Virus record (IMG/VR): IMGVR_UViG_3300025118_000033
Location: 1-45,522 of that record
Source of the DNA: a virus
DNA: 45,522 nt
Direction: 5' to 3' (one strand)
In this document: in pieces, positions 3,356-22,837 of the stretch
Numbering within the stretch: the stretch's first letter is position 1
Layout of the letters: each line of letters opens with the position of its first letter
Translations under genes and position numbers: made by a program
Notes under the pieces: generated by a model
Seen by the model: the letters and a program-made list of their open reading frames with translations, nothing else
Databases searched by the model: none
What the model was told of the DNA's origin: nothing

Positions 3356-3663
3356 ATAAAATTACCAAAAGAATCGGAGAATTGTGTAGCATTATTAATG
3401 AATTGTGGGCCGCACAGCAGTCTTTTGCACAAAAATTAGCTATGCATACTCATGATGTTCCCGGCGTGACTCCGGGCCTCGGCGCCGCGAAAAGTATCCC
3501 ATCAATAGATCTTGCATCAGCCGTACCCCCATATATTCAAGCCATGGTAGAACAACAGATAAATGCATTTAGAACAAAAACAAATGCCGAAGTTATACAG
3601 TGGGTCGAAGATAACGAAATGGGATACGATTCTATTAATAGCCAGCACAATAGGACAAATTAA
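3313..3663 (+). CDS. putative baseplate/tail protein, C-terminal fragment
   Basis: This is the C-terminal third of the 316-residue protein that begins at 2658. It has a helical stretch (ALDKITKRIGELCSIINELW), a histidine-containing MHTHDVPG motif of the kind found in many phage tail and baseplate proteins, and a further helical end. The ATG at 3313 lies inside the duplicated segment and is probably an internal methionine. The stop at 3661-3663 overlaps the ATG of the next gene (TAATG), which implies coupled translation with the 1786-residue protein. A baseplate role is inferred from position between the lysin and gp25. Confidence 0.7.
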   Translation: MQPIPMGKNVAGALDKITKRIGELCSIINELWAAQQSFAQKLAMHTHDVPGVTPGLGAAKSIPSIDLASAVPPYIQAMVEQQINAFRTKTNAEVIQWVEDNEMGYDSINSQHNRTN

Positions 3664-6600
3664 TGGATGACTTGTTAAGAGAAATTCTCGATAAATTATC
3701 GATAAAACTATCTGGCGACATATTAAGCTCAGCCGACCTTTCTGATATAGACGACGAAGTTCTTGAAGCATTCGATGATGTGGTCCATTGGCCTTCGTCC
3801 TCTGAATTCAAGGGCTTGTCGGATGAGGACATCTCCGATATGTACCGTAACCGTGTATCAAACGCGATGAACGATGTCCTAACAAGTGAAAAAGATTCTC
3901 TTTTAAAAGTATTAAAATCACACATAATAAAACAAATTATTGATTCAGAAACAGATGAAGAAGCAATTAGAAATATTTTAGCACTAATCGACACAAAAGA
4001 GGAAAATTCACCTTTATTCTTTTCGTTTTTTCTTAATTTGCCTGGTGCTCTTGAAAGTATAATTTTCAAATCCAGCGGATACGTCGGGGCTGATTTAGAA
4101 GAGATTATAGAATTTTTTAGGGAAAAACTAGATCTTTCAGAGTTTTTGCCAGATTATTTCTATGAGCCTTTTGATTTTGTGGAACTTCTTGGTGATGACG
4201 CAATTGAGTTTTTTACTTTTATTTCTGACAATAGGGCGGTCCTCGGCTTAAGCTCTGCCGACCTTCTCCACATCGCAGAAATTACAAATCAAACTTTTCT
4301 GATATTTAAAGCAGAATTTGGAGAAATATTTGGTGAATCTACATGTTCATTATTAGACGAACCCGAAAAACCACCCACCCAAGCTTTAGAAGAGGATCCT
4401 TGTACCACTGCAAGTCTCTCAACAACACCCCTCCCCCCAGATTGGACTTCGGCAGATACAGATCGTGTTTATTATAACGAAGATACTTGCTCTTATTGTT
4501 TGGTTTACAAGACAACTTATATTAAAACGGGAGGCCCCGATCTGGAAAACAGAAAAGAAGAAAGCAAGATCCCGGCCGCTCAAAAAATTCTTGATCTTTT
4601 AAATAAAGAATATACCGAGGAAGAGTTCACTGATATTATATCTTCGGTAACTGTTAAAAATTATTATCTAAGTCCCAAACCGTTTATAAAAATGATATTC
4701 TTGGTTGAAATACCAGCTGGAAAGATCAAAGATTTAAAAACAATTGAGGTAAAAGAACAGGAAGAGGGCACTTTTGTTGAATATTATGCTTTAGATTCTT
4801 TTTCTAAAAATATAGAAATATTAGCAACCAAATTAAGATTCTATCAATCACAATATGTCGCGGCAATTTTTCGTGGAGGCCCCCAATATGAAAATTTAAA
4901 TTTCTTTACCGAAGCAGATTATTTATTTCTTTTTAGAGAAAATTTAGTTTCCCTGATGGCCGCTTCTGATGCAAATCCGGATGAATATCTGGATCTTGGT
5001 ATCGAGTTTGTTCTTGGTTCATATGAAATAAAGAGTATTTTCCTGGCAAAAACAGGATTCTTAAATAAAGAACTTATGAATGGATTTCAAGAGTTTTCTA
5101 CAAGTGAGCCGCAGAATAGATCGACCACAATGAACTTCATAAGCAAGCTTTCAGATATCATATTCGATATACAGTCTCAATCATATGATAAATTTGTTGA
5201 TAAATATTATTATCCCACGATTATTGCACGACCGCCCGCCGATCCTACTGATAGTAACGCTTTATTAAAAAAAATAGGAAGTCTTTCAAAAGATCTTTTG
5301 ACGAGCGAGACTTTATATGCGATGTCCTCAACTCCATGTTTGACACAAGAGGAGGTGGATAAACGTAATAAACAAATAAAAAAAGAAGATTCGGACGGAA
5401 AGTTAAGCAATTTCGCAGATAAATATAGTATCTCTGTTGAAGATGCTTTTTTCGCATCAATGCCCGATATTCTTAAAAGGATAACCAAAGAACAAGGCAA
5501 AGGCGCCCTAAATGCACTGGGGAGAGAATTTTTGGGAAAGCTTGGGGTTTGTGGCTTGGGCGATATTCTGGGAATGTTGGCAAATACTGCTTTTAGTTTC
5601 CTCAGTTTGGCAGAATATAAAGCAGCGATTGCAGAATGTGCTTTATCAAATCTAAAAATGGAGTGGTTAGAAAAATCCTATCCAAAACTTTTAGCTCTGG
5701 ACAACGGCTTCGACATCAATGCAAAATACACAGAGATAGTTGGGGATTATCTTTTGCCGTGGGAATATCTACCGCAAGATTATCGTGCAGGTAGAAAAAG
5801 CGGCGGTGCTGTCTATTCGATAGGCTTAATCGATGGAAGTGCACCTTTGGAAACGCCCACTACACAGTATTCTCAAGGAGATGCTCCACCGACTATGGAT
5901 GCTGAAATAAGATTCCGCGCCCTAAAAGACGCAATTAGCCTGACAATTGATATAAATGATTTATTTGATTATTTAAAAAATCTTCCTGGTAATGGATGGA
6001 TGAAATTTTTGGTGGAAGGAATGCAGGTAGCCTTAGAATCTTGCGAGATTCCCACCATTGGTACCCTTAGTATAGGCGCAAATTGGTGTAAAGAAACACC
6101 AGACGGCAAAAAGAAAAAAATATCATTTCCAAAAATTCCAGAATTAAAAAATACACCCTCCGCGCTTGATTTTATTGTTAATAGCGCGCTAAACTTAATT
6201 ATAAATTTGGCTGTGAAAACAATAACAGAAATTTTAAATAATATATTTCAACAATTGGCGTCAAGCATATCTGGCACAAAGAACTTTTCTGCATCTGGCG
6301 CAGAAACTTCCGAAAATACTCCTCCCATATACATAAATGAGGAAAATTATTTTAGAAATAAAATAAAAGATGCATCTCCAGATCTAACGGAGCAGCAGAT
6401 TTCCGAGATATATATGAGTGTTTTGGCTAAGGTTTTTGGCCAACAAATATCTGTTTCTCAAATAACTACCGAAGAAATGGTTTTCTTTTTGGATACTGGC
6501 CTTTCTCAGCTTTTAAATGAGTTTGAAAAAATAAATTTGTTGGAAGGAGGCATTGATAATAATGTGTTCGAGGCAATTCTTGATTTGGTCGAGAATACAT

Positions 6601-9023
6601 CTCTGGCCAATTATTTCAGCAAAAAAAGCAACATAGTTGCATATTTTCAGGAATTGTCTATACATCTTGATATTGATGAGATAAACGATGATTTTTTAAA
6701 ATCTCTGCAAGCGCCCGTTTCCACTCCTTACGACGGCGTTTGGTGCACCACGCCCGATTCTGGTTTTTCAAATGCATTGGCGACAAAGGATGACACTGCC
6801 AGTGAAGAACAGCAGTCGGAAATTTTAAATCAAAAAAAGGATGCCGCGAAAAAACAGTTATGTGATATTTCTCAAATTTTAGGAAGCTCAAATCCTCTTT
6901 TTGGTAAATTAAATGAACAGCTTTTCGGTGAAAACGGACTTCTTTCCAAACAAGTATCGAAAGTAGAATATAATTTTATAAAGAAAGGCGCAGAAATAAT
7001 TTTGGAAGCTATTAATATATCCTATCGGGGCGACCTTTTTGGTGTCGAAGGATTAATAAATATTATATTGCATGATCCGAACTGGGCTATTGGTAATTAT
7101 CCCGAATTCAGAGTGCCAGAAGCAGAGAGTGAAACATTGGCCCTATATGACATGCAATGGAACCTGCTTAAGCACGCCAGCATATTCATTGGCCACGAGT
7201 CATTATTGGGCGAGGGATATAATATACATTTTACATTTGGGGATCCATATCATGAGCTTAAATTCATAGAAAATTATACACAAGATTCCAGCACCAGCTC
7301 AGCATTCACAACAGGAACAGTCACAGTTCCAGCGCGAGTAACACTAGAATCTCTTTTTCAGCCGCATCAGCCGTACCGAGATCCGGATACTCTTATAAGT
7401 TTATCAAATCTTCCAAATGATAATATTTATGATACACCATCTACATTTTTGAGAATTTTGATTGAAGATAAGCTGGGATTTTTAGAAGAAGAGGTTCGAT
7501 CAAATTTTATAGATATATATATCAGTGACGATGGCGCCATCTCTGCGTTATCAAATGTGATAAAATTTTATTTTAGTCGAGCGATATATGAAGCTCAAAA
7601 TAAGTCTCTTGCTTTTACTTATGAGAACTGGCGATTTATTGCTGGAACTTTGAATTCCCCATCACGAACCCGCAGCATATTGGGTCTTTCTACCGTAATG
7701 GATGATCTTGAAGAATTTTATCAAAGATTAAAAGAAGATGAAAGAATTTATGCTTCCGATAGAAGTCAAATTGTGGAGCCCCCCTTCAACCGGGTGCTTA
7801 AAAAATTACATGTAATTCAAAATTATCCGCTAGTATTAACACTGTTTAGAATTTATGTTTTAGAGTTCATATATAAAAGTTTATATTTTTTTAAGACGTT
7901 TTCAATTGATTTTTTTAATAAGGAAATAATATCTAAATATATTGCGATTAATATAATGAAAGATTTAGAAGATCTCCTAGAAGAAGAAGAATATTATAAT
8001 TTTTTAGAAATAGCTGTGCAAATGTATACAAAAAAAATAGAGGCCGGCCTCGGGAAATTTCCAAGCATCAATGCAACAAGAGCCATAGAAACAATTAATG
8101 AAAAAATTATTCAATGGGTAGATGGCGGCATGACAAAAAACAAGAAAGAAATAATAGCCTCCACAACCAATCAAATTGAAATAGTAATCGCGGCGATCCT
8201 GGAAGAAAACTTTCCAGATATTTTAGAAGATCTAAAATCAGCCCTCCCTCCCGTATATCCAATTATGTCTCCATTTATTTTTAAGTTTATAGAAGGATCT
8301 TTGATTGGAGATGATCCTGGTCCAAGAAATGTGGCATCCGATGTTGACAACTACCAGTATAGTTTGGCCGATTTGTCGCCCGGTCAGCCAAATGGTTTTT
8401 TAATATTGGAAAAATATATTTATATCGAAGATAAAGATAGTCCAATTCACGCAGTCAAAACAAGACCTGAAAATTTATTCGGCGTCGTAAATCTATACGA
8501 GTGGGAAGAGTGGGTTAAAAAATCTGGCTTGAGCGGGTCGATATCTGATTATTGGAAATCTTGGAGGTACGGACTTAGAATCTGCATGAATACAAAATCA
8601 TCAGACGGTGATGATCTTGAAATTCCTATCGAAGAGCGCCAAAACAACAAATCTTTTATAATACAGAATTCTGATGGCACATCGATGCTCTCAATTCCGG
8701 TGGTCGATAGCAGAATAGAGATTCCCGTAAACACTCAAATTACAGATATTAAAGAGTCTATCGTAGATGAATACGATGTAGGATGTTTGGTTCTTGAAAT
8801 GTCGGACTCTTTTGAATTTAAAAATTTATTATCAACTTGTATAGCTTTGCCTCGATTAATTTCATTAATTACTATTTATAGTGTGGATAATTCGATTGAA
8901 TCACTATTAACAGGAATGGATAAGAATATAAGTTCACCAGTGCAAGAATGGTGGATTCGTGGCGCCAAAACATTTGAGAATACCAAGCGCCAAATAATAG
9001 AGACTATATTGGGGGGAGTGTAA
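3663..9023 (+). CDS. giant virion protein (1786 aa) upstream of gp25
   Basis: One uninterrupted frame encodes 1786 residues. The first 230 residues are acidic and helical, ending in a Pro/Thr-rich, cysteine-bearing linker (residues about 225-275). The middle is mixed, with a stretch of alternating small and hydrophobic residues (about 830-880) that could insert into a membrane or form a buried helix. The C-terminal third is helical and then beta-rich. I recognise no domain. It is joined at both ends by TAATG overlaps, so it belongs to the baseplate operon. It could be a baseplate hub or wedge protein or a tape-measure-like protein, although it lacks the long uniform coiled coil expected of a tape measure. 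The assignment as virion protein is inferred from position and size. Confidence 0.75.
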   Translation: MDDLLREILDKLSIKLSGDILSSADLSDIDDEVLEAFDDVVHWPSSSEFKGLSDEDISDMYRNRVSNAMNDVLTSEKDSLLKVLKSHIIKQIIDSETDEEAIRNILALIDTKEENSPLFFSFFLNLPGALESIIFKSSGYVGADLEEIIEFFREKLDLSEFLPDYFYEPFDFVELLGDDAIEFFTFISDNRAVLGLSSADLLHIAEITNQTFLIFKAEFGEIFGESTCSLLDEPEKPPTQALEEDPCTTASLSTTPLPPDWTSADTDRVYYNEDTCSYCLVYKTTYIKTGGPDLENRKEESKIPAAQKILDLLNKEYTEEEFTDIISSVTVKNYYLSPKPFIKMIFLVEIPAGKIKDLKTIEVKEQEEGTFVEYYALDSFSKNIEILATKLRFYQSQYVAAIFRGGPQYENLNFFTEADYLFLFRENLVSLMAASDANPDEYLDLGIEFVLGSYEIKSIFLAKTGFLNKELMNGFQEFSTSEPQNRSTTMNFISKLSDIIFDIQSQSYDKFVDKYYYPTIIARPPADPTDSNALLKKIGSLSKDLLTSETLYAMSSTPCLTQEEVDKRNKQIKKEDSDGKLSNFADKYSISVEDAFFASMPDILKRITKEQGKGALNALGREFLGKLGVCGLGDILGMLANTAFSFLSLAEYKAAIAECALSNLKMEWLEKSYPKLLALDNGFDINAKYTEIVGDYLLPWEYLPQDYRAGRKSGGAVYSIGLIDGSAPLETPTTQYSQGDAPPTMDAEIRFRALKDAISLTIDINDLFDYLKNLPGNGWMKFLVEGMQVALESCEIPTIGTLSIGANWCKETPDGKKKKISFPKIPELKNTPSALDFIVNSALNLIINLAVKTITEILNNIFQQLASSISGTKNFSASGAETSENTPPIYINEENYFRNKIKDASPDLTEQQISEIYMSVLAKVFGQQISVSQITTEEMVFFLDTGLSQLLNEFEKINLLEGGIDNNVFEAILDLVENTSLANYFSKKSNIVAYFQELSIHLDIDEINDDFLKSLQAPVSTPYDGVWCTTPDSGFSNALATKDDTASEEQQSEILNQKKDAAKKQLCDISQILGSSNPLFGKLNEQLFGENGLLSKQVSKVEYNFIKKGAEIILEAINISYRGDLFGVEGLINIILHDPNWAIGNYPEFRVPEAESETLALYDMQWNLLKHASIFIGHESLLGEGYNIHFTFGDPYHELKFIENYTQDSSTSSAFTTGTVTVPARVTLESLFQPHQPYRDPDTLISLSNLPNDNIYDTPSTFLRILIEDKLGFLEEEVRSNFIDIYISDDGAISALSNVIKFYFSRAIYEAQNKSLAFTYENWRFIAGTLNSPSRTRSILGLSTVMDDLEEFYQRLKEDERIYASDRSQIVEPPFNRVLKKLHVIQNYPLVLTLFRIYVLEFIYKSLYFFKTFSIDFFNKEIISKYIAINIMKDLEDLLEEEEYYNFLEIAVQMYTKKIEAGLGKFPSINATRAIETINEKIIQWVDGGMTKNKKEIIASTTNQIEIVIAAILEENFPDILEDLKSALPPVYPIMSPFIFKFIEGSLIGDDPGPRNVASDVDNYQYSLADLSPGQPNGFLILEKYIYIEDKDSPIHAVKTRPENLFGVVNLYEWEEWVKKSGLSGSISDYWKSWRYGLRICMNTKSSDGDDLEIPIEERQNNKSFIIQNSDGTSMLSIPVVDSRIEIPVNTQITDIKESIVDEYDVGCLVLEMSDSFEFKNLLSTCIALPRLISLITIYSVDNSIESLLTGMDKNISSPVQEWWIRGAKTFENTKRQIIETILGGV

Positions 9024-9403
9024 TGGCGTCAGGATTATCGGCAGCGTTGCCGCTAACAGTTAGCATAGAAGATGGTCCATATCGCCTAAATAAGACCATC
9101 AATGAGTTATCGACTCAAAATCTAAAGATGGTTGTTCTTACTAATCCCGGAGAAAGAATTATGAATCCTGATTTCGGTGTCGGAATTAGTAGATATTTGT
9201 TTGAACAAGCCGGAAGTAATGCTTTTGATCAAATAAAATCAAGAATAAGTCAGCAAGTTGGTAAATATTTATCTTATATCAATATTATGTCTATTAATAT
9301 TGGTAATTTTACTGAACTTTCAAATGCTGTAAGAATAGTTATTACATACAATATTCAATATTCTAATGAGAAATTAATATTAGACTTTATAGTTACGGAG
9401 TGA
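9023..9403 (+). CDS. gp25: baseplate wedge protein, T4 gp25-like
   Basis: This 126-residue protein matches the gp25/GPW family, the small conserved wedge protein that initiates sheath assembly at the baseplate in contractile tails. The family's core is visible: LSTQNLKMVVLTNPGERIMNPDFG-type sequence (residues about 32-55), where a strand is followed by a PGER turn and a DFGVG motif, then helices and two terminal strands. T4 gp25 is 132 residues, so length agrees. Its start overlaps the stop of the giant gene (TAATG), with GGGGGGAG upstream as ribosome site. It sits directly before gp6, as in T4-like genomes. Confidence 0.9.
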   Translation: MASGLSAALPLTVSIEDGPYRLNKTINELSTQNLKMVVLTNPGERIMNPDFGVGISRYLFEQAGSNAFDQIKSRISQQVGKYLSYINIMSINIGNFTELSNAVRIVITYNIQYSNEKLILDFIVTE

Positions 9404-9415
9404 GGATTTTAAAAT

Positions 9416-11206
9416 ATGGCCAAGAAAAAAGTACCAATTATATATACCAGCAGAGATTTTGATTCTATAAAATCAGATTTGGTAAATTATGCTAAAAGAT
9501 ATTATCCTGATATTTATCGCGATTTTAATGAGGCTTCATTCGGCTCTCTTATGCTGGATACGGTATCCTATGTGGGCGATATTTTGTCTTTTTACGTTGA
9601 TTATCAAGCAAATGAATCTTTTTTAGATACGGCCGCCCAATATGATAATGTTGTTAAATTAGCTCGACAAATGGGATATAAATTTGGAGGCATTCCAAGT
9701 GCTGTTGGCCAAGTCCTATTGTATGTTTTGGTGCCCGCGAATGCTCTGTCTCTGGGCCCAGATAGTCGTTATTATCCAATTTTAAGAGAAGGAACTTCTT
9801 TTATTACTACTTCTGGCGCTTCTTATATTTTATCCGAAGATGTCAAGTTTGGAGACGTTAATACTACCATGGTCGCCGCCCGAGTTAACGAATCTACTGG
9901 CATACCGACCTTTTATGCTCTAAAGACGACGGGTAAGGTGATTTCCGGTCGAATTTCAGAGGAAACAATAACTATCGATGAATTTCAGAGATTCAGAAGA
10001 ATCCAATTATCTTCAACAAATATAGTGGAAATCCTTTCTGTTACAGACGCTGAGGGAAATGAATATTATGAAGTTGACAATTTGAGTCAGAATGTTATTT
10101 ACAAAAGTATTCCAAATAAAACCAACAGTATGGACTTAGCACAATTTTTGCGACCGGTCATAGTTCCCAGGAGATTTATATTTGAAAGTGACGGATCACA
10201 ATTTTATTTACAGTTTGGATATGGATCAGAAGAAGAACTAACTTTAGATTCAGTAGCAGATCCTTCAAATGTCACTCTTCAAATATACGGAAGAGATTAT
10301 GTTACCGATCCGACTTTGGATCCATCCAAATTGATGAATACTGATAAGTTGGGAATTTCACCGTCGAATACTACATTAGTAATCAAATATAGAAAAAATA
10401 CGGCACTTGATGTTAATGCTTCTGCTGGCTCTCTCAATAGGGTGGGAAATTTAAAAATAGATTTTAATACCTTGGTTGGACTTGATGCTACTAAATTAAA
10501 TACCGTAAGGGGGTCAATTGAGGTTTCCAATGAAAAGCCAATTTCAGGCAATACGACAATTCCCAGCATTGAGGAAATAAAGCAGAGATCTCTTGCAACT
10601 TTTTCTGCCCAAAATAGGGCAGTAACTTCTAGAGATTATGAAAATTTGTGTTATGCCATGCCTCCCAAATTTGGTTCAATTTATCGTTGTAATATATTGG
10701 TTGATGATGATTCATTTAAGAGAAATTTAAATTTATATGTTTTATCACAAGGATCGAGCAATAAGTTAGATTTAGCAAGTACTCAAATAAAGGAAAATCT
10801 TAAAATTTGGCTAGGCGGCCAAAAAATGATTAACGATTCTATAGATATTTTAGATGGCAAAATAGTAAATTTAGGAATTAAATTTGAGATTCTTTCGGAT
10901 CCGAGCTTTGGCAAGACCGATGTGCTTGGGTCGTGCAAGGCGGCGTTGAAAGAAAAGTTTGAAAGCCCTCTTCAAATGGGGGAACCGCTTTATTTAACCG
11001 ATATATATTATCTCCTAAACGGCTTAAGGGGTGTCATAGATACGAAAACAGTTAGTTTGGTCAACAAAACCGGAGGAGTCTATTCTGATGTTTTTTATAG
11101 CGTCGGAACCAATATGTCTCCAGATGGCAGGTATTTATATTGTCCAAAGAATGTAGCTTTTGAAATAAAATATCCAGGTGAAGATATTAGGGGCGTCATA
11201 AAATAA
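9416..11206 (+). CDS. gp6: baseplate wedge protein, T4 gp6-like (Baseplate_J family)
   Basis: This 596-residue protein resembles the gp6/Baseplate_J family, which forms the inner ring of the baseplate wedge. The N-terminus carries the conserved run IYTSRDFDSIKSDLVNYAKR, then DFNEASFGSLMLDTVSYVGD and YQANESFLDTA (residues about 10-70). The middle is beta-rich, and residues about 380-420 (IEEIKQRSLATFSAQNRAVT) match the helix-strand part that precedes the DYE motif typical of Baseplate_J proteins. T4 gp6 is 660 residues. A 12-base gap separates it from gp25, and its stop overlaps the next ATG. Confidence 0.88.
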   Translation: MAKKKVPIIYTSRDFDSIKSDLVNYAKRYYPDIYRDFNEASFGSLMLDTVSYVGDILSFYVDYQANESFLDTAAQYDNVVKLARQMGYKFGGIPSAVGQVLLYVLVPANALSLGPDSRYYPILREGTSFITTSGASYILSEDVKFGDVNTTMVAARVNESTGIPTFYALKTTGKVISGRISEETITIDEFQRFRRIQLSSTNIVEILSVTDAEGNEYYEVDNLSQNVIYKSIPNKTNSMDLAQFLRPVIVPRRFIFESDGSQFYLQFGYGSEEELTLDSVADPSNVTLQIYGRDYVTDPTLDPSKLMNTDKLGISPSNTTLVIKYRKNTALDVNASAGSLNRVGNLKIDFNTLVGLDATKLNTVRGSIEVSNEKPISGNTTIPSIEEIKQRSLATFSAQNRAVTSRDYENLCYAMPPKFGSIYRCNILVDDDSFKRNLNLYVLSQGSSNKLDLASTQIKENLKIWLGGQKMINDSIDILDGKIVNLGIKFEILSDPSFGKTDVLGSCKAALKEKFESPLQMGEPLYLTDIYYLLNGLRGVIDTKTVSLVNKTGGVYSDVFYSVGTNMSPDGRYLYCPKNVAFEIKYPGEDIRGVIK

Positions 11207-12681
11207 TGGCTATTAAAAAATATTTTGCAAATGCTGACAATACCATAACAAATGCCTTTGAGGCAAACTTACAAACTCGCGGTACTGGTGCAAATATGGG
11301 CCTCTCAGACATTTTGGAGACCTTTTCCATTTATGGGCAAGCCTCCTCGGGATCAACCGAGCTTGAGAGAATATTAATTGAGTTTCCAATTAATCAAATA
11401 ACAGCAGACAGGGCGAGCAATATTGTTCCTGCTTCTGGCAGTGTTAGTTTCTATCTCAATATGTACAATGCACGCAGCAATCAAACATTGCCGCGAGAGC
11501 TTAAATTGGTAGTTCTTCCCATATCCCAATCTTGGCAAGAGGGTACTGGTCTGGATATGGAAGAATATAAGGATGTCACAAAGGGTAATAATGGCTCCAA
11601 TTGGGTTAACGCAGGAATCGGCGCGCCCTGGACAAGAGAAGGCGGCGATTATTTAACTTCTTCATATTCTCAAATTTTCCCAATAGGAAATGAAGATTTG
11701 GAAATTGATATAAGTGCCCTTGTTGAAGATTGGATTGATGGAACAATTGCAAATTATGGTATCGGAATTCACCTAACATCGAGTCAAGAGGCCTATTTTT
11801 CAAACTCTTTGGGAGCAGATGTCGGAAGTCAATTATTTAATCCAGATGGATCCACAGATACCTATTATACAAAGAAATTTTTTGGAAGAGGAACGGAGTT
11901 CTTTTTCTCAAGACCAGCAATTCAGGCCCGGTGGGATTCCTCAATAAAAGACGACAGGGGAAACTTCTATGCAAGTAGCTCTCTAGTTCCCGCAGCGGAT
12001 AATATGAGAACACTCTATCTTTATAATGTGATAGGAGGAAGATTAAGAAACATCCCAGCAGTTGGAACCGGTGAAATTTATGTTAAAGTGTATACATCAG
12101 CATCAGCAGGAACAGATTTAACCCCGACTCCCATAACAGGGGGCTATGTTTCACTTGGTATTTATTCGGCATCTTTTACTCTAGACACGACCGTCAGTAC
12201 AGTATATGACAGGTGGTATAGTTCAGGCTTGACAGATATTTATCATACTGGAACTTTTGATGTAAAACAATATGCAGTGAGTACACACAATCCCTATGGA
12301 AATTTAGTGACAACACTTACAAATTTAAGGCCGACTTATACAACTTCCGAGACAGCCCGATTCAGATTTTATGAGCGACAAAAAGATTGGAGTCCGACTA
12401 TTTACACAGTAGCTACTACGGTAACAGATACACTTGTTAATGAAAGTGCATCTTATCAAATTCATAGGATAATTGATGATTTAGTTGTAATTCCATATAA
12501 TACGGGAAGTGATAGAGGGACACAAATGTCTTTTGATGTGAATGGAAATTATTTTGATTTTAAGATGGATCTTCTAGAACCTGGGTATTCTTATGGGATT
12601 AAGATAGCTTATTATAACGAAACAGTTGATAGTTATGTTGAGCAGCCTCATGAATGGAAATTCAGGGTAGAAGAAGTATGA
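11206..12681 (+). CDS. virion protein with DNRLRE-like beta-sandwich
   Basis: The 491-residue product is almost entirely beta-strand. Residues about 45-205 resemble DNRLRE-type domains: ERILIEFPINQI, SVSFYLNMYNARS, LKLVVLPISQSWQEGTG and VEDWIDGTIANYGIGIHLT follow that fold's order of a hydrophobic strand, a decorated arm, a W-containing loop and the NYGI strand. The C-terminal half is less typical and may be immunoglobulin-like. It follows gp6 in the baseplate operon, where T4 has its outer wedge genes, so it is probably an external baseplate or fibre-attachment component. Carbohydrate contact would be possible but is not shown. Confidence 0.75.
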   Translation: MAIKKYFANADNTITNAFEANLQTRGTGANMGLSDILETFSIYGQASSGSTELERILIEFPINQITADRASNIVPASGSVSFYLNMYNARSNQTLPRELKLVVLPISQSWQEGTGLDMEEYKDVTKGNNGSNWVNAGIGAPWTREGGDYLTSSYSQIFPIGNEDLEIDISALVEDWIDGTIANYGIGIHLTSSQEAYFSNSLGADVGSQLFNPDGSTDTYYTKKFFGRGTEFFFSRPAIQARWDSSIKDDRGNFYASSSLVPAADNMRTLYLYNVIGGRLRNIPAVGTGEIYVKVYTSASAGTDLTPTPITGGYVSLGIYSASFTLDTTVSTVYDRWYSSGLTDIYHTGTFDVKQYAVSTHNPYGNLVTTLTNLRPTYTTSETARFRFYERQKDWSPTIYTVATTVTDTLVNESASYQIHRIIDDLVVIPYNTGSDRGTQMSFDVNGNYFDFKMDLLEPGYSYGIKIAYYNETVDSYVEQPHEWKFRVEEV

Positions 12682-15600
12682 CCATAAAAAACCTTTTTGA
12701 TGGAGATATTCCATATAAAGTATTAAGTGAGGATCCGGCAGATATACGAAAAGATGCCGAATCTTTAGATAATATTAATGCGACATTTAAAAACTATAAT
12801 CGTTTCATTCCTCAGGTTGATTTTGGAATTCCAGAGAATTTTGCAAGATACGGATCTGCCGAAAAATATTATGAAGATGCCATTACTAGAATATATGGCT
12901 ATTATCCTTATGATGGATCTTCGAAGGAAAAACAGATATTCTTAAATAAGTCAACATATATTGATTTATGGATGCTGGATAATAAATATCCGAGAACAAA
13001 TGGATATGCATTATTTTCAGCAAATGGATGGGGCAGTGTAACAACATCGCCCATAGCATCTACTGCTTTCTACGGAGAACCAAGCACTCAAGAGTATATT
13101 TATTTTGAAGGCGGCCCTCATACTGCCTCGGGAGGCATGATTGGAAAGCCCCTTCAAAAAACTTTTGATGATTCAAACATCTATGATGAGGACATTTATG
13201 ATGATGTTGGTTACGCCGGGAAAGGAACAAGAGAAAGCAATCTCAAAACAAACTTCGATAACGGAATAACAATAGAATTTTGGTTTAAAAAGGAAGACTT
13301 TACAAACTCTAATACAGAAAAAGAAGTAATATTTGATTTATGGAACAATATAACTTCTTCGGCTACTTCTTACGGACGCGTTTTATTGCAAGTTACTGGA
13401 ACTGCCGGGTCTTCTCCATTTACTCTGTCAGTTCAGTCTGGAACTGCTGGTTTCACCGAACAACCATTTGGTTCGACTCTAACTACCGCTTCTTTTGAAT
13501 CTTTCGGACACTATGCTTTTAGAATCTATAATTCAGGTTCGAGTTTAGTTACAGATTTTTATGTAAATGGTGAACCAACAGAAACCGCTTTAACTGGCAA
13601 TCTTAATGAAATCGATGGCGCCCTAAACGCACAAATAGGAGCGCTTACAAGTCCCGCCTTTAGTGGAAGTGGCGAATTTGCCGACAGAGGATGGGGAAAG
13701 CTTTCCGGATCTATCGACGAATTCAGATTTTGGAAGGAAACGAGAACCTCAGAAGATATTGGACGATATTGGTTCACACAAGTTTATGGAGGAACCAATA
13801 CGGATATATCAAACGCCGCTTTGGGAGTTTATTACAAATTTAATGAAGGGATTACGGGAGATTCTTCCATCGACTCAACGGCCCTTGATTATTCTGGTCG
13901 AATTTCAAACGGAACTTGGACTGGCTATACATCAGATTCTAGAACAACGGCCTCTGCGATTGTGGAGGCTGGAGCGGCAGTAACGGAATTTTTGGATCCA
14001 ATCATTCACTCCACAAACCCACTTGTGCAAGCTGTTCTGACAGAAATGAAAAATTCTGGTTCCGTACATGATTTTCAAAATAATGCACAAATTTATAATA
14101 GTATTCCCACTTGGATTATAGAAGCCGACGACGAGGAGGGTGGTACTCTAAAAAATCTAGCGCAAATAATGTCAAGTTATTTTGACACCCTTCATCTTCA
14201 AATAGAGCAGCTTCCAAGACTCAAAGATATTACTTATGTGAGCGGCACCAATGAAGAAAATGTATTCGCAGATGAACTTTTGGAGGGGAGTGGATTTGTA
14301 GCCCCTGAGATATTTGCAGATGCATCAGTTTTAAATCAAATATTTTCAAGAAATGAAACTGAACATTTTGAAGAAGAGCTTTATAAAACTAAAAATTTAA
14401 TTTATAAGAATATCTATAATAATTTACTTTATATTTACAAATCAAAAGGTACTGAAAAATCTTTTAGAAATTTAATAAGATGTTACGGTGTTGATAATGA
14501 GCTTATCAAATTAAATTTATATACCAATAATTTAAGTTATGAAATAGAAAATAAGCTAAGATTTGATACGGCCAAAGAAAGATATGCTGATTTTTATTCG
14601 CCATCTAATTTTGGAGCAACGGTTTATCAACAAACCGCCAGCGGAGATTCAAATAGTATCAGTTTTATTTCGGCATCTTCTGCGGATTTAGAAAAATACA
14701 CTTCTTTTACTCTAGAAATTGATATTATTTTTCCAAAAAAGAGAGATCCGTCCCGCGAGGATTATTTTTTAACATCATTTAATACTTCTTCGCTTTTTGG
14801 TTTCCATTCCGCTGATCCGACCACACCGACAGACTTTACTTGGCCCGGAACCGACTATGATTTGAGTGTTTATGCAGTACGCCCAGACGATAACGATAAT
14901 CAAAAAGATGCATATTTTTTATTAACCAGTTCATTTTTCGGAATAGAATTACAGACAGACACCTACGCAGATGTATACGAAAATAAAAAATGGCACTTTA
15001 CAGCTAAGGTAATTCCAGAAAAAACTCATTGTAATTTAGCATCCGGCACACTTGATACAACCTATCGTGTTGAATTTGCTGGCATAAATACTGATATTGA
15101 TATCGTAAGAGAAGAATTTGTTTTAACTTCTTCAATATCTGATGATTCTTATCTAACAATTCCGAAAAGATTGTACATGGGATCCCATCGAACTAACTTT
15201 ACCGGTTCTCTGATACACCAGACTGATATTAAAGCTTCTTTTTATAGATATTGGATGAAATATCTTGGTGATTCTGAAATTAAATCACATGCGATCGACA
15301 TTCAGAACACGGGTATAGCAAATCCTGCCGAAAATGCATACAATTTTGTCACTTCTCTCACGGGAACTTACATTCCAAACAAAAAAATGTTGGCTTTAAG
15401 CTGGAATTGGAATCAAATTAGCTCCTCTGATGCCAGTGGCCAATATCTTGTGAAAGATCTTTCTTCTGGATCGGCCGAACTGACCAGCGAATACCGCTGG
15501 ATTGGCGAAACGGTGGGGAGAATACACCCCGGCAAAGGCGATTTTTATAACGCAGATGATTCGTCGGTAATAAATGTAGAATATATTCCAATTGGTAGAT

Positions 15601-18600
15601 CTTTAGACCCAGAAATCTTAAATCCAGCATATGATCTGGTAAAAATACTCACCCCGGCCGAAGATAATGCGTTTACTAGACAAAGACGCCCAGTTAATTT
15701 TTATTATTCTATAGAAAAAAGCATGTATCAAACAATTAGTGAAAATATGATGCAATATTTATCATCGGTTGTTGATTTTTCAAATTTATTTGGCCAACCG
15801 GTTGATCGATATAGAACAAGTTACAAAAATTTAGATAAATTAAGAAATCTTTTCTTCGAAGGTATAGAAAACGAGCCAGATATCGAAAGGTATATTGAAT
15901 ATTATAAATGGGTTGATTCTTCTCTCTCAGAAATGTTAAAAGAGCTAATTCCGGCAAGTTCTAACATCTCAGACGGCATAAGGACAATTGTTGAGAGCCA
16001 TGTGCTTGAAAGAAACCAATATCGATACAAATTAGCAGAATTGGGTACACCCGCTTACATGGACGACCTCACAGCAACCATAGAAAGTGTTGCCCTCTTG
16101 GTTGAGTGGAAATTTGGAACGCCAACATTGCCATCATCACCGCCACCCACGAATGAACATTGTTATTGGTGGAAATATAGGGCCGACAGAACAAATCCCG
16201 AGATAACATCAGGTGATGCGGCAGTTGATGCCGACAGAAATATGATTCTTTCTGCGTCGATTAGTGCTCTCACACGCACCCAATCACGCCCGGTGAAGTT
16301 TTTAATGAATTTAGAGCCAGCATTGCGTGGCGGCCTAACATCGAATAACAATAATATTATAACTAATGTAAAAAGTTCCATTCAATTTGGTAATTCTGCG
16401 GGAATTATCATTGCAGAGTCGGAAGTTAAGGAATTTAAGGACTGTCAGGATGTTTTTAAACCTAATTTAAAGCAAAAATTCTCTTTTGAGGCCGAAAACC
16501 GCGATGATAAAGAAGGATATGCTACCGGTGAGGGTGATTTGTTGGTCCCGTTCATCGCAGTTAGCTCATCAGTCATAACGGGATATAATAAAGAAATAAA
16601 TACAAACTTTAAGCCGGGTTTTGGGGTAACTAACCTCCATATTGATTCATATGAAAATTATGAAGTACCAATGCAGGGCCCGTTTACTGAAAAGTGGGTT
16701 GGCGGAAATCAACATAGGCATGTTCCTCTCAATCAAGGCACCGATAGTAGAACTAATAGGCCAGAAGCGTGGGCATTAACATTCCCCACCTCTCCGGTGT
16801 CAATGAAGTTCGTATATCAGCCTCCGACTATCCCCCGAGCCGTATTTTATCGCGATTTGATAGCAAAAAGACCAGTAAATATCAAAAACATCAAAGATAA
16901 TACAACCACAGGAGAACTTGGAAATTATAGTAAAGATTATGAGATTGTCCAAACTTGTGGTAGAACAACCAATAATTCTGCCTTTATAAAGGCCGGTGGC
17001 TTTGAAGTCGTCAATATTCCTTCCCCTTATGTGGCAGGAATGGATGATTATGCAAAGCCACAGCGAGGAAGATCGGCTTGGGTCTTCGTTAATCGATTTT
17101 CTTCTCCGGGCTCACCAGATACGGCAGGTGATTCCAACGGAGGGCCCGCCCTGGATCCGGAAGCTGCTGAATATTCTCCATATAATAACATAAATTATAG
17201 AAATACGACAGTTCGAGATCCCTATAGACTTCTTTTGGCATCTCATGTAAATCAATTTGGCTATTATTCGGATGTTTTTGGAATAGGCAACGGCCCCTCG
17301 GTTGTTAATTCACTGAATTATGCTGGCACCGCTAGCATCTATCAAGTTAATCGGAATCCAGTTCGACAAATGAAAGATTCCGGCTCAACATCATTGACCG
17401 CCTCCGTTTATGATAATTTTTATGTGCAGCACCCCATTCCTAGAACCGATATGCAATATGCATGGATAACAGCATCGGCCCTTTCATATGATACCTTTGG
17501 TTATCTTCCTTACTCTGGAGAAGTTTCTTCGTCTAGTGGGCCCATTTCTCTTGTAACCTTTTCTTCTGCGAGTGATTATGTATCAATATATTATCAACAG
17601 AACTATTTCGGGCCCACGGCCTCGATAAATATCCACCTCTTTGGCTTTGATAAAAATTCGTTGCCCGTATTGGGTACAGGCGGCTCTTATTCTTTTACTT
17701 CGAGCTACTATATTCCAACGGTTTATAATTGGCTTAATTATAATGTTTACGAGCCTTTGGAATATTCAAGTTCTTTCATAGGATATAGGCCCTCGGTTGC
17801 AAATATTTCAGATTATGTGAATTCCGCTCTAATTCCAGATGGGTTTACTAATCAAGATGCATTTGATTATGATGCCGGCCCTGCTGCACTATTAAATGCT
17901 ATATTATTAAAGCGTAATGGCCCCTATCAACATCCTTCGTGGAAACAAATTCGAGGAAACGAACATCCATTGGTGAGATATTGGAATAGTCATGGAAAAA
18001 CCGCATATAACCTTCCGGGGGGAACCCTTTATTCCGATCCATTTGGGAATGTTAAAATGCCTGAAAATGGAGCTTTCAAGATTTTAAAGGATCCGGCGGT
18101 AATAAGCAAATATAAGCCTTTGGGTCATGGTTTAAAAATCGCGAAAATTCAAGAAAGCGAAGGATATCCTCCATTTTATACGCTGGAAACAAGCAAATTG
18201 CGAAGCAGCTATGGGAATATGCTAACATATTTTGCAAATAAAGAAATATCAAAGGACAATTACTTGACAGAAGACGGATCTAGGTTGCCTTATGTGGGAA
18301 TATTCGAGATGTATTCCGAAAATGCATTAAACGATAATATTAGCCCGGTAAGAGAATTTGGCTATCTTTCATACTCGGAACAGGTGTATCCATCTTCCAT
18401 TAATTGTTATTCCAAAGAAAATCGAGAAAGAGTAGGATATCAGAACACATTTTGGAAAGATTCTCGACTGGAAAGAACAACTCTTGGAGAATCTAAATTC
18501 GGAGGAGATAATTCACAAGGAACTCTCTATCCAGATTCGTCGGCAAGTTCTTCTCAGAGTTCTTGGGCCCTAGATGCAAGGGATAATTTTTCAACAAGCC

Positions 18601-21600
18601 CCCATTTAACTGCCATCGACTATTCATCAGGATCTGAGGGTGCTGGTGAATTACAAAATGATTATACAACAGTTAACAACTCTTTTACTGACAGTGGATT
18701 TTTAAGCTTGATACAGGCTTCTCCTTTTTATAATAGAAAACACACGATGGGAACAACTGGATCTGTTGTGGGAATTACTGGTATGGAAGCAATTGCTTCT
18801 AATGTTGGATCTCCTACATATCTATGGCTCGAAGAGGCCAGTGGTATTTGGGGCCCCATTTGCGCCCCTCCCTTAATTATGTCTACCTATTCTAATTCTG
18901 CCGGTTATGTTTCTGTATTCGGGGGTTCGGCCAAATTTGAAGCAGATAAATTTGCGGGCTATGTTGAGGACGGCGTTTTTATCTCGGCTTCTGCCACTCC
19001 GTTTTATGATAAATATGAACAATATAATCTTAATATGAGATTAAAAAACAAGGATATGTCGCTAATACCAGAATTTAGAATAGGAGATCATATCCAGAAA
19101 TATTTAACCGATTCAAATGGATTTGTTTCTGAAAATGCAGCATCGTTTTCGATTTTCGGTGCGGATTCTTCATTGGCGCCCCAAAATAGCTCAGAGGATA
19201 ATTTTTATCGCATTTATTCTTTCTCTGATTTTATGGAATATTTTGAAGTTTTTGATGAAGATCATAAAGAGTTCGGAGTTCCACAAACTTTGACCCTTTC
19301 TTGTAAAGCTTTGATGAAATTCATTCCTTACGACGGGTTTTATCCAGCAGAGAGAACTCTGGAGATTGCTCAGGCATTTTCTCAATCATACGGAGATCAT
19401 ATTTTAGGAAAAGTGCCCTTACACAGATCTAGAAGATCTTTGTACGCCCCATTGTTCTCCCCAGGAATTTTATTTAACACAATAAAATCGGGAGTTGCAG
19501 TGGATTATCCTGTTTTGAGTGCCGAAAACGCGGGGGTTTTCGATTTTAGACAAAGGGTGGTCGAAGCGACCGGCACGACCGGGGGCGGGGAATTTACAAA
19601 CTATACAGTTTCCAACACCGATTATTACGGTATTGGGACAATTTTCTCTCTTAATCCGGCCAAAACCGGCCGCTGGAATACAAGAATACCCTTTGAGGCA
19701 CTATTGGAGCCTGAAAGAATTTATAATATTAATTTCGTACCGATGGAACCACATCCAAGTTGTAGTGTAAATACTTTATATAGTGCATCATTGGGAGATA
19801 GCGCCCCAGCAAATAATAGATATAAATTAATGATTTCTAATTTCACCTCAGAAACTATCAATTTCTTTTTGAAAGATGGTTTAACGAAAATCTCTACTGA
19901 ATCCCGCGATGCCGATGCCGCTACTTTTAAGTATCCGACCAAAGTAGGATCTTATTATGGTTTGAGAATAAAAATGAGAAGAAGTCTTAATAAGGCAAGA
20001 GAATTTAATTATCCTTCGTGGGCTCCCTTTGAAACCCCTCAAGATCCAGACCCGCGCCTTGGTTCTGGATCGGAGGGCATTTATAGTGGTTCTGCCACCG
20101 GAGTATATGAGACAATGACAATGTATAGTCGACCCTCGGCATTTGGACCTCCTGTCCTCGCCGGAAGGGCCATTAATGGATATTCTGCCGCCGGGTTCGG
20201 AGGTGATTGGACCATTCAAGCGCCATGGAAAGATTCTACAAGCGGATATAATCCATCATTTACTCCTCCTTATTATAGTGGTGAGGCCTGGGCCGATATA
20301 ATTTTTCAAGCGACAACAGATACGATGACTTTAGACGATATTTTTGCAACAGCTTCGGTTAAATATTGGAGAATAGATCCGGGCGGACCCACCACGACCG
20401 CCACGGCCTCACTTTGGAACCCCGGATCCAATATAGATAGTTTCGCACTTGGCACATATCTGATGCAAGACAGTAACGCTAACGATAATTCTATGCAATT
20501 ATCTGCCTCTATAAACATTTTCAATAAAGAATATACAGAATCATCAGCGGCCCCGGTTTGGACAATTCAAACTAAATTTGAGACACCAATCTTAAACTTT
20601 AATGATAAAACGGAAAGGGGATTAAATTTTGATAATATAACACTTCCGGCCCCCGCTGGCTGCGGCCCCTTCGCTCCCCCCGGCGCCGGCGGTCCTCCTT
20701 GGGAGGGGTGGGGAGGACAAACTACCACCCCAATCGGAATGTGGCATCAATTTGGACTCGTTCCAGAAGAAAAAGAAGGCATTTATTTGGAAATTGGAGA
20801 CATTCCTAAAGACTGGTTAGACAATAGAGCAGTAGATAGCGATATATCTTCGTCTTATAATGCCAGTGCTTCTGCGGGCCCCCTTTTCCCACGGCTCGGC
20901 ACTCGCACTGGAAAAATGGAATCCTTGGCAGAGTTAGTAAATTTCGGAACTCAAAGTAAAAAATTAGGTCAACTGAAAGACTCCAAGACAGTTTACGAAG
21001 CAATTGTGGCAGTTCCATTTATAGAAAACCCGGTCAAAACACGCAGCAAGGTAAAAAATCCATCTATAGATATTCGTAATGATAAGAGGCTCTTCTTTGA
21101 GATCCCGGAAGGCATGATTAATTATTCTTTGAGAATTCTTGGTGAAGAATTAGATCTTTCTAGGGCTTTTGAGCTTCAAGCTAACGACTCAATTATTGAT
21201 ATGGTTGATAAGGTAAAAAATAAATATGTTTTTCCTCCTCAATTTGATTTTATAAGAAATTCAAAAGCGAAACCGGTGTCTATGTACATTTTTGAATTTG
21301 AGCACACATTTGATAAGAACGATCTATCATATATGTGGCAAAATCTTTCTCCAAAATTTGGAACAAAATTTAAAGAATCGTCAGCAACACTTTCTCATCC
21401 AATGATAAAGGGAGAGTTGTTGGAAGATTTAAAAGATAAAGTGCAATGGATGGTATTTAAAGTAAAACAGAGGGCCAATACTAATTATTATAGCAACGTC
21501 GTAGGAGGACCAACAGTAGAAGAGACTGAATTTGGTTATAATTGGCCATATGATTATTTTTCAATGGTTGAATTTGCTAAAATTGATGCAACCGTTGATT

Positions 21601-21788
21601 TTGGTAAAACACTAGATGAACCAATGGAAACACTTTTAACTGCATCACAAGTTCCGCTGCCACCTACTTATGGAGATGCCATGTCTTATACAAATACCAG
21701 AACATCGAAAGAGAATAGAGACTCAGAAACTGATGTTGAGTCGAGAGTGCAGGCAGATGTGAAAAAGAAAATAAGGGATATTGATTAA
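12678..21788 (+). CDS. giant baseplate/tail protein with LamG-like domains (3036 aa)
   Basis: This is the longest gene here. I choose the ATG at 12678, which overlaps the previous stop as ATGA, over an upstream ATG at 12654. Residues about 190-365 form a laminin-G/concanavalin-like domain (GITIEFWFKK, FGHYAFRIYNSG, VTDFYVNGEP, SGSIDEFRFWKETRT). A second LamG-like segment spans about 670-870 (FTLEIDIIFPKK, KKWHFTAKV, RLYMGSHRTNFTGSLIHQ). The centre is long, aromatic and Ser/Tyr-rich. A Pro/Gly-rich linker lies near residue 2660, and the last 300 residues are helical. It takes the place of gp7 and following wedge genes in T4 order. Surface sugar binding is plausible from the LamG folds but unproven. 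Confidence 0.82.
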   Translation: MTIKNLFDGDIPYKVLSEDPADIRKDAESLDNINATFKNYNRFIPQVDFGIPENFARYGSAEKYYEDAITRIYGYYPYDGSSKEKQIFLNKSTYIDLWMLDNKYPRTNGYALFSANGWGSVTTSPIASTAFYGEPSTQEYIYFEGGPHTASGGMIGKPLQKTFDDSNIYDEDIYDDVGYAGKGTRESNLKTNFDNGITIEFWFKKEDFTNSNTEKEVIFDLWNNITSSATSYGRVLLQVTGTAGSSPFTLSVQSGTAGFTEQPFGSTLTTASFESFGHYAFRIYNSGSSLVTDFYVNGEPTETALTGNLNEIDGALNAQIGALTSPAFSGSGEFADRGWGKLSGSIDEFRFWKETRTSEDIGRYWFTQVYGGTNTDISNAALGVYYKFNEGITGDSSIDSTALDYSGRISNGTWTGYTSDSRTTASAIVEAGAAVTEFLDPIIHSTNPLVQAVLTEMKNSGSVHDFQNNAQIYNSIPTWIIEADDEEGGTLKNLAQIMSSYFDTLHLQIEQLPRLKDITYVSGTNEENVFADELLEGSGFVAPEIFADASVLNQIFSRNETEHFEEELYKTKNLIYKNIYNNLLYIYKSKGTEKSFRNLIRCYGVDNELIKLNLYTNNLSYEIENKLRFDTAKERYADFYSPSNFGATVYQQTASGDSNSISFISASSADLEKYTSFTLEIDIIFPKKRDPSREDYFLTSFNTSSLFGFHSADPTTPTDFTWPGTDYDLSVYAVRPDDNDNQKDAYFLLTSSFFGIELQTDTYADVYENKKWHFTAKVIPEKTHCNLASGTLDTTYRVEFAGINTDIDIVREEFVLTSSISDDSYLTIPKRLYMGSHRTNFTGSLIHQTDIKASFYRYWMKYLGDSEIKSHAIDIQNTGIANPAENAYNFVTSLTGTYIPNKKMLALSWNWNQISSSDASGQYLVKDLSSGSAELTSEYRWIGETVGRIHPGKGDFYNADDSSVINVEYIPIGRSLDPEILNPAYDLVKILTPAEDNAFTRQRRPVNFYYSIEKSMYQTISENMMQYLSSVVDFSNLFGQPVDRYRTSYKNLDKLRNLFFEGIENEPDIERYIEYYKWVDSSLSEMLKELIPASSNISDGIRTIVESHVLERNQYRYKLAELGTPAYMDDLTATIESVALLVEWKFGTPTLPSSPPPTNEHCYWWKYRADRTNPEITSGDAAVDADRNMILSASISALTRTQSRPVKFLMNLEPALRGGLTSNNNNIITNVKSSIQFGNSAGIIIAESEVKEFKDCQDVFKPNLKQKFSFEAENRDDKEGYATGEGDLLVPFIAVSSSVITGYNKEINTNFKPGFGVTNLHIDSYENYEVPMQGPFTEKWVGGNQHRHVPLNQGTDSRTNRPEAWALTFPTSPVSMKFVYQPPTIPRAVFYRDLIAKRPVNIKNIKDNTTTGELGNYSKDYEIVQTCGRTTNNSAFIKAGGFEVVNIPSPYVAGMDDYAKPQRGRSAWVFVNRFSSPGSPDTAGDSNGGPALDPEAAEYSPYNNINYRNTTVRDPYRLLLASHVNQFGYYSDVFGIGNGPSVVNSLNYAGTASIYQVNRNPVRQMKDSGSTSLTASVYDNFYVQHPIPRTDMQYAWITASALSYDTFGYLPYSGEVSSSSGPISLVTFSSASDYVSIYYQQNYFGPTASINIHLFGFDKNSLPVLGTGGSYSFTSSYYIPTVYNWLNYNVYEPLEYSSSFIGYRPSVANISDYVNSALIPDGFTNQDAFDYDAGPAALLNAILLKRNGPYQHPSWKQIRGNEHPLVRYWNSHGKTAYNLPGGTLYSDPFGNVKMPENGAFKILKDPAVISKYKPLGHGLKIAKIQESEGYPPFYTLETSKLRSSYGNMLTYFANKEISKDNYLTEDGSRLPYVGIFEMYSENALNDNISPVREFGYLSYSEQVYPSSINCYSKENRERVGYQNTFWKDSRLERTTLGESKFGGDNSQGTLYPDSSASSSQSSWALDARDNFSTSPHLTAIDYSSGSEGAGELQNDYTTVNNSFTDSGFLSLIQASPFYNRKHTMGTTGSVVGITGMEAIASNVGSPTYLWLEEASGIWGPICAPPLIMSTYSNSAGYVSVFGGSAKFEADKFAGYVEDGVFISASATPFYDKYEQYNLNMRLKNKDMSLIPEFRIGDHIQKYLTDSNGFVSENAASFSIFGADSSLAPQNSSEDNFYRIYSFSDFMEYFEVFDEDHKEFGVPQTLTLSCKALMKFIPYDGFYPAERTLEIAQAFSQSYGDHILGKVPLHRSRRSLYAPLFSPGILFNTIKSGVAVDYPVLSAENAGVFDFRQRVVEATGTTGGGEFTNYTVSNTDYYGIGTIFSLNPAKTGRWNTRIPFEALLEPERIYNINFVPMEPHPSCSVNTLYSASLGDSAPANNRYKLMISNFTSETINFFLKDGLTKISTESRDADAATFKYPTKVGSYYGLRIKMRRSLNKAREFNYPSWAPFETPQDPDPRLGSGSEGIYSGSATGVYETMTMYSRPSAFGPPVLAGRAINGYSAAGFGGDWTIQAPWKDSTSGYNPSFTPPYYSGEAWADIIFQATTDTMTLDDIFATASVKYWRIDPGGPTTTATASLWNPGSNIDSFALGTYLMQDSNANDNSMQLSASINIFNKEYTESSAAPVWTIQTKFETPILNFNDKTERGLNFDNITLPAPAGCGPFAPPGAGGPPWEGWGGQTTTPIGMWHQFGLVPEEKEGIYLEIGDIPKDWLDNRAVDSDISSSYNASASAGPLFPRLGTRTGKMESLAELVNFGTQSKKLGQLKDSKTVYEAIVAVPFIENPVKTRSKVKNPSIDIRNDKRLFFEIPEGMINYSLRILGEELDLSRAFELQANDSIIDMVDKVKNKYVFPPQFDFIRNSKAKPVSMYIFEFEHTFDKNDLSYMWQNLSPKFGTKFKESSATLSHPMIKGELLEDLKDKVQWMVFKVKQRANTNYYSNVVGGPTVEETEFGYNWPYDYFSMVEFAKIDATVDFGKTLDEPMETLLTASQVPLPPTYGDAMSYTNTRTSKENRDSETDVESRVQADVKKKIRDID

Positions 21789-22837
21789 TGCGCTTTATGG
21801 ATAAAAAAGAAGAAGTCCTCGATATAGAGCTTACTGATTACGGAAAATATTTACTTTCTCAGGGAAAGTTTAAGCCGGCCTATTATGCCTTTTATGATGA
21901 TAATATTCTATATGATGGAGAATTCGCCGGGATTGTGGAAAGTCAGAGTGCAATCGGCAATAGAATAAGAAATGAAACCCCGCAATTACAAGTTCAATCC
22001 AAATTTTTAGAAAACAATCAAAAAAGTATGGAAATTGACCTTGGCGGCGTTACTCAATTGGTTTCTATTTTATCTAAAGATAGGTATGTTTTAAATAAAA
22101 TTTTAGGAACTTCGGAAATTGGTAATCAAAATGCGCCTGCTATATCGCTCAAAGTTTTACAAGGCGAGATCACAGGCACCATAGAAAGGGTCTATCAGCC
22201 GCCAACTTTGAATCCGCTTAAAAAGCCAAATTTGCTTCCAATTCCTCAAATAAACATGGATTTAACTTTTGAAATTAAAGTAGCTACGTTGGATGCTGCC
22301 GAGACAGAGAGTCCATCTCCGGCATCCTATCTTCCCACATCAGAACGATTGACTGATTTTATGGATAAAGAGCTTTTTAGCAGGCCCGCAGCAGATGGTT
22401 CTTATTTAAAGGTAAAAAGTGATTATTTATTGTTTGATTTGGATGAAAAAAATACTAATTTTCTTAGGGAAAACTTCGAAGTGGAAGTATACAAGATTGA
22501 TAATGAATCTTCGGCAGAAGAGAGGTTAATCCCATTGACTTTTATGCGAGATGTTACACCTCAAATGAAAAATGGAATTTTATTGGATGTAGATGATTTT
22601 GACGGAACATCCTATGCATCTGTCTTTCCGTCTGTTGATAATGTAGAATATTATTTTGATATTTTCGTTGATGAAGAAATAGATCGACGGTTAATTTTAA
22701 ATGCAATTTCTCTCTTGAAGTCAAAGGGTCTTTATACTGATGAAGAATTTATGTCGGATGATATTTTTGCTAAGTTAGAAGTGGCAGACATCTATGGTAA
22801 GGTTGTTGATGATAGTGATATAATAAAGTGTGATTAA
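21788..22837 (+). CDS. virion protein with LTD-G N-terminal module
   Basis: The 349-residue protein starts MRFMDKKEEVLDIELTDYG. The pattern LD..LTD.G...L..G followed by FYDDNILYD recurs at the N-terminus of the 320-residue protein at 28987-29949, so the two share an N-terminal module. That match supports the ATG at 21788 over the one at 21797. The rest is mixed, with an acidic C-terminus (DEEFMSDDIFAKLEV). The start overlaps the stop of the 3036-residue gene (TAATG), which places it in the baseplate/tail operon. Function is unknown beyond a probable structural role. Confidence 0.75.
   Translation: MRFMDKKEEVLDIELTDYGKYLLSQGKFKPAYYAFYDDNILYDGEFAGIVESQSAIGNRIRNETPQLQVQSKFLENNQKSMEIDLGGVTQLVSILSKDRYVLNKILGTSEIGNQNAPAISLKVLQGEITGTIERVYQPPTLNPLKKPNLLPIPQINMDLTFEIKVATLDAAETESPSPASYLPTSERLTDFMDKELFSRPAADGSYLKVKSDYLLFDLDEKNTNFLRENFEVEVYKIDNESSAEERLIPLTFMRDVTPQMKNGILLDVDDFDGTSYASVFPSVDNVEYYFDIFVDEEIDRRLILNAISLLKSKGLYTDEEFMSDDIFAKLEVADIYGKVVDDSDIIKCD

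Follow-up and report, generated by a model that had tools for sequence, protein, structure and literature searches.

A single open reading frame (ORF) occupies positions 12678-21788 (+ strand) of the window analysed here, an entire 45.5-kb virus record from IMG/VR, and encodes a protein of 3036 amino acids (aa), referred to below as the giant. The giant is quite probably the peripheral baseplate-wedge protein of a lineage of T4-related phages, which is the role of T4 gp7 and P2 gpI ('BW3'), and the best-supported reading of its architecture is a gp7-like wedge scaffold carrying modules of the glycan-binding type. Because phage Vp4 Gp119 is already known with inserted carbohydrate-binding modules (CBMs), the giant is an extreme and widespread variant of a wedge protein with such modules; its potentially new element is the C-terminal fold. 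A preliminary description, made from the sequence alone, had proposed the same ORF, and the frame indeed runs the whole distance without an internal stop. An alternative in-frame ATG lies eight codons upstream, at 12654; the ATG at 12678 is the better start, since its first bases overlap the upstream stop codon (ATGA) and since it is where the relatives begin (M[S/T]IKxLF).

The part of the giant that resembles known wedge proteins is a helical core (residues ~448-620; 14019..14537, + strand), which is helical in the predicted model, is matched by homologues in cultured phages (independent E-value, iE, 1e-15) and holds a strongly conserved motif, IYKSKGTEKSFRNLIRCYG, within residues ~450-620. 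In the core motif NIYNNLLYIYKSKGTEKSFRNLIRCYG, the G-T and several flanking residues are invariant in 39 relatives. When these 39 were scanned one by one, 20 touched TIGR02242 (the NCBIfam 'phage tail protein domain', the family touched by most relatives; best E 0.0032) and four touched Tail_P2_I (best E 0.024), counts that come from related and hence not independent sequences. The weak matches to TIGR02242, to Tail_P2_I and to T4 gp7 coincide on the same residues of the giant. Profile-profile alignment of the core segment lays the KGT motif of the giant (LYIYKSKGTEKSFRNLIRCY, residues 584-603; 14427..14486, + strand) on T4 gp7 residues 732-751 (YDFYSTKGIEASYKFLFKVL, which in Aeromonas phage P19 reads 'FYSSKGT') and on the corresponding KGT motif in P2 gpI. 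For each target the core segment outscored 150 of 150 column-shuffled controls, and scores were far lower for other segments of the giant. A second conserved helical part (residues ~1000-1125; 15675..16052, + strand; EKSMYQ..IS, YKW.DSSL..ML..L.PAS, ESH.LERN) is common to all three of the shorter relatives described below. A PDB sequence search with the core profile yielded nothing but repeat artefacts (IcmE/DotG), and matches to NF058619, Mei5, CREPT and the like were treated as chance.

The genomic setting points the same way. The giant sits in a T4-related tail operon, behind a gp25-like wedge protein (9023..9403, + strand; PF04965 over cut-off), a gp6-like wedge protein that is its expected partner (9416..11206, + strand; PHROG baseplate wedge subunit, E 1.3e-22) and a 491-aa protein (11206..12681, + strand), and is followed by a number of tail genes without assignment and by the genes for RuvC, terminase and portal. 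Neither a PHROGs search nor tblastn of 50,697 phage records matched the giant protein. Searching IMG/VR with the complete giant recovered 60 homologous loci, the majority of full length, with best-segment identities of 28-57% save for one partial, near-identical record; the protein occurs in many uncultivated, mostly marine, relatives of phage T4. The order gp25-gp6-491-giant-349-(630)-(252)-1095-320-341-388 is conserved wherever contigs reach; among the 60 loci gp25 is kept in order in 50, gp6 in 52 and the 491-aa gene in 53. In terminase and gp6, the cultured phages that come closest are Flavobacterium phage immuto and Microcystis phage Mel-JY01. The window may belong to the 'Far-T4' viruses, a T4-related group that includes Rhodothermus phage RM378 and has been linked to marine Bacteroidetes hosts (PMC7198788).

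Shorter proteins in cultured phages provide a bridge between the giant and an ordinary wedge protein. At the same operon place immuto encodes a 1265-aa protein (QQO92079), Mel-JY01 a 1336-aa protein (WWT39511) and an uncultured 484-kb phage a 1400-aa protein; all three match the giant's core (residues 440-620; E 3e-14 to 3e-17) and its second helical part (iE 4e-4 to 1e-11), and the Mel-JY01 protein additionally matches part of the second LamG domain (iE 1e-4). In none of the three were the first LamG domain, the middle or the C-terminal half found at the sequence level, and the immuto and Mel-JY01 proteins are annotated as hypothetical. With the core retained in these shorter proteins, and the first LamG domain and the C-terminal half missing, the size of the giant can be explained as that of a wedge protein of about 1300 aa to which a LamG domain and a half of about 1350 aa would have been added. 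Counterparts of the 491-aa gene are likewise found at the same place in the three phages. The protein of the window is a distant relative of the one in Mel-JY01 (BLASTP E 4e-7), and the latter has a CBM96 match below the cut-off (E 5.5e-5).

Several results weigh against the wedge assignment. An extra gene, that of the 491-aa protein, lies between the giant and gp6, and for this lineage placement in the wedge is drawn from genes and models. No match to Tail_P2_I or TIGR02242 rises above the curated cut-off (12.7 bits for the window protein against 51.85), although T4 gp7 itself is likewise unmatched by these NCBIfam models. The pairwise hhalign probability of the core against gp7/gpI is about 12%, no individual gp7/gpI match is significant by itself, and a plain hmmsearch with the core profile fails to rank T4 gp7 among about 370 ORFs of T4, P2 and Mu. 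In the N-terminal model the core is partly of low confidence, with some stretches below 50 in predicted local distance difference test (pLDDT), and no PDB wedge protein is among the matches listed for that model. Because the shuffled controls are beaten but the pairwise E-values are only 0.002-0.006 and hmmsearch is negative, homology of the core to the gp7/gpI family is suggestive and not proven. The wedge scaffold of the preliminary description thus finds its support in the core with its KGT motif, in the order gp25-gp6-X-giant and in the shorter cultured homologues; this support does not extend to full-length orthology with T4 gp7, which the core alone resembles, and weakly. Similarly, the position of T4 gp7 claimed there holds for the wedge gene block and fails for the place directly after gp6, where the gene at 11206-12681 has no equivalent in T4.

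The N-terminal half of the giant contains two LamG folds. Behind an N-terminal region (residues 1-190; 12678..13247, + strand) with a YY..YPYDGS segment conserved in the family alignment and covered by the model, a LamG/concanavalin-A-like domain spans residues 192-361 (13251..13760, + strand), with a PF13385 match over the curated cut-off (E=1.3e-7; 32.3 bits against 27.6) and detection in 25 of 32 aligned relatives. An AlphaFold2 model of residues 1-1180 (mean pLDDT 65.8) contains two confident beta-sandwiches, at residues about 197-352 and about 627-859/875; in the PDB the model matches pentraxin, laminin LG and neurexin domains, several of which span both. The second sandwich, a LamG-type domain (14556..15302, + strand), is positioned between the two conserved helical parts and is not detected by a Pfam search of the giant. 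Both LamG domains had been named in the preliminary description, at about 190-365 and 670-870; the former agrees with Pfam, and the latter is recovered in slightly shifted form from predicted structure. From the fold we infer that the two domains may bind glycans. The profile of the first domain also matches other tail proteins, in Mel-JY01 (L222, 34176-35951; iE 9e-4) and marginally in immuto (L221, 28000-29073; iE 0.07), as expected of a shuffled module, which suggests that LamG modules are exchanged among tail genes.

The C-terminal region (residues 2060-2995; 18855..21662, + strand) is confidently modelled, in one prediction from 38 sequences, with a mean pLDDT of 73.6 and a predicted template modelling score (pTM) of 0.82. 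A fold search of PDB returned nothing significant (best match E 1.8), and sequence profiles found nothing in PDB or Pfam; weak matches to jelly-roll capsid proteins were rejected as not significant (E > 0.03). In BFVD the sole significant matches are seven long proteins of the same fold at 18-32% identity, among them A0A0F7LAZ6 (named as from an uncultured marine virus), A0A516M7I0 and A0A1B1IV21. They are apparent family members, deposited only as uncharacterised, and so do not serve as a known comparator. The model therewith supports, with caution, a fold absent from solved structures. A profile of this region confirmed at least 586 stretches, and the family is therefore common. We regard it as evenly balanced whether the last ~1000-1350 residues represent a large fold unseen in solved structures that forms an outer baseplate or adsorption structure in hundreds of viral contigs, and that a gp7-like wedge protein has taken up, with repeated fusion and splitting of the two.

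The two halves are seen both fused and as separate genes. In 10 of the 60 loci (L029, L030 with its near-copy L060, L032, L033, L036, L039 with L040 and L050, and L045) the giant is encoded by two adjacent genes; the break falls at about residues 1450-1740 (17025..17897, + strand), and the N-termini of the second gene differ between loci. Mapped on a core tree, the split state requires three changes, only one of which is forced by strongly supported branches. In a second locus set (n=80), 59 loci are fused and 13 have the core and the C-terminal half in separate frames, including a contig with an in-frame stop; the in-frame stop of L005/L232, a single one in the same frame, was left out of the gene-split count. 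These results do not support the idea of one wedge-sized unit: some relatives encode the C-terminal half as a gene of its own, and in the cultured ones it is absent at the sequence level. Conservation along the giant is uneven (58-sequence alignment), and the length of the relatives ranges from 2918 to about 4077 aa. Insertion hot spots lie at residues ~1154, ~1452 and ~2004-2032; the one near residue 1452, not far from where the split genes break, holds an insert of 40 aa or more (up to about 320) in 16 of 37 full-length relatives. For the middle, said earlier to be aromatic and without recognisable fold, sequence searches agree on the latter, while its composition is ordinary (F/W/Y 12.9% at residues 900-2900, against 13.1% in the whole giant and 13.0% in its upstream neighbour).

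Wedge proteins of known systems offer a frame for how the giant might work. In T4 and its relatives gp6 and gp7 form a 2:1 heterotrimer (PMC6300606), and in several phages receptor-binding proteins attach to BW3 (T4 gp7, P2 gpI) (PMC10811340). The giant shares with T4 gp7, P2 gpI, Mu gp48 and TssG the operon place after the gp6/gpJ gene and, by weak profile similarity, a KGT-type helical motif followed by a beta-strand; T4 gp7 is a large peripheral wedge protein, as proposed for the giant. It differs from T4 gp7 in being three times longer, with only about 20-40 residues alignable by profile, in its LamG domains and C-terminal half, and in the one extra gene that precedes it after gp6. A functional parallel is the 831-aa BW3 of Bacillus phage Vp4, Gp119, which is enlarged by CBMs and has been shown to bind cells, whereas its plain counterpart in phage Deep-Blue, the 341-aa Gp177, lacks them (PMC11406892); Gp119 comes from an unrelated phage of the Herelleviridae, is far smaller, has CBM folds other than LamG and has no counterpart of the C-terminal half (PMC11406892). 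By analogy, the gp6-like protein, encoded two genes upstream, would in two copies join the two parts of the core (residues ~450-620 and ~1000-1125) in a complex of the form (gp6)2-(gp7)1. Since one LamG domain lies before the core and the other between its halves, both would project from the wedge, where they might make six-fold, low-affinity contacts with surface glycans. An extra outer structure that carries receptor-binding proteins or braces the wedge could be formed by the C-terminal ~1350 residues, whose fusion to the wedge protein would fix a 1:1 ratio and ensure co-assembly.

How the LamG folds act bears on this mechanism and leaves the wedge assignment untouched. LamG/ConA-like folds are often structural modules, and the evidence for these domains in the giant is their fold, so it is a serious if lesser possibility that they are spacers or protein-protein contacts in a large baseplate and bind no glycan. 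This possibility is countered by the CBM96-related protein encoded next to the giant and by the binding of host cells by the Vp4 wedge protein with its inserted modules (PMC11406892).

Other explanations concern the identity of the protein itself, and the evidence speaks against both a fibre and a tape measure. The LamG folds, the variable length with its insertion hot spots and the fact that most of the giant is unrelated to any wedge protein would suit an adhesin or receptor-binding structure, fibre- or tailspike-like, that is attached to the baseplate by the KGT-like helical segment while another protein does the job of gp7. We consider this unlikely: it is the helical core and its flanks that are most conserved, not the lectin domains, the shorter relatives retain the core without the first LamG domain, and the gene lies in the wedge block. 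Pfam and PHROGs searches and the PDB fold search of the C-terminal region returned no trimeric tail fibre or tailspike, and a fibre or spike identity was rejected for want of family and fold support. That the giant is a tape measure protein is barely conceivable, its great length being the one feature in favour. The N-terminal model has a mixed fold (26% helix, 21% strand) without a long coiled coil, the gene comes after gp6, the relatives differ in length through domain insertions, and the 1786-aa gene upstream of gp25 occupies a better candidate place; this identity was rejected on secondary structure and gene position. No segment mapped onto a receptor-binding fibre or a tape measure, the outcomes that had been named at the outset as speaking against a wedge protein.

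As a wedge protein, the giant suggests how such a protein can absorb host-recognition modules together with a neighbouring gene. Although it has gone unannotated, the family occurs widely in uncultivated viral contigs, so that its naming provides a large T4-related lineage with a baseplate anchor; the cultured phages with shorter homologues make the wedge assignment testable, and the C-terminal region, a large predicted fold without solved counterpart, is a target for structure work.

Outside the viral records, part of the 491-aa gene and residues 1-1215 of the giant are found at 9481-13654 of a locus (L174) in CP070664.1, labelled as the 'chromosome' of WOR-3 bin77; a prophage was rejected in favour of an assembly chimera, in which a phage fragment is stitched between gaps of 100 N. 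Short contigs of metagenome-assembled genomes (L172, L173, L175 and L176) say nothing firm on hosts. Elsewhere in the window, the 1786-aa protein (3663-9023) is a candidate tape measure or hub protein; PHROGs and Pfam searches gave it no match, and tblastn found it in only 14 of the 60 loci. Further downstream, the 349-aa (21788-22837) and 320-aa (28987-29949) proteins weakly resemble each other in an N-terminal domain (27% over 119 aa, E 0.001), and a C-terminal stretch is common to the 341-aa and 388-aa proteins (21% over 182 aa, E 1e-8). Near the start of the window, the ORFs at 1334-2290, which contains an imperfect repeat (LKPDFYYGP..ATRAEFNSG), and at 2202-2648, which appears CHAP/amidase-like (GAQWCAAFISWAYEEG), overlap and are possibly one gene broken by a frameshift.

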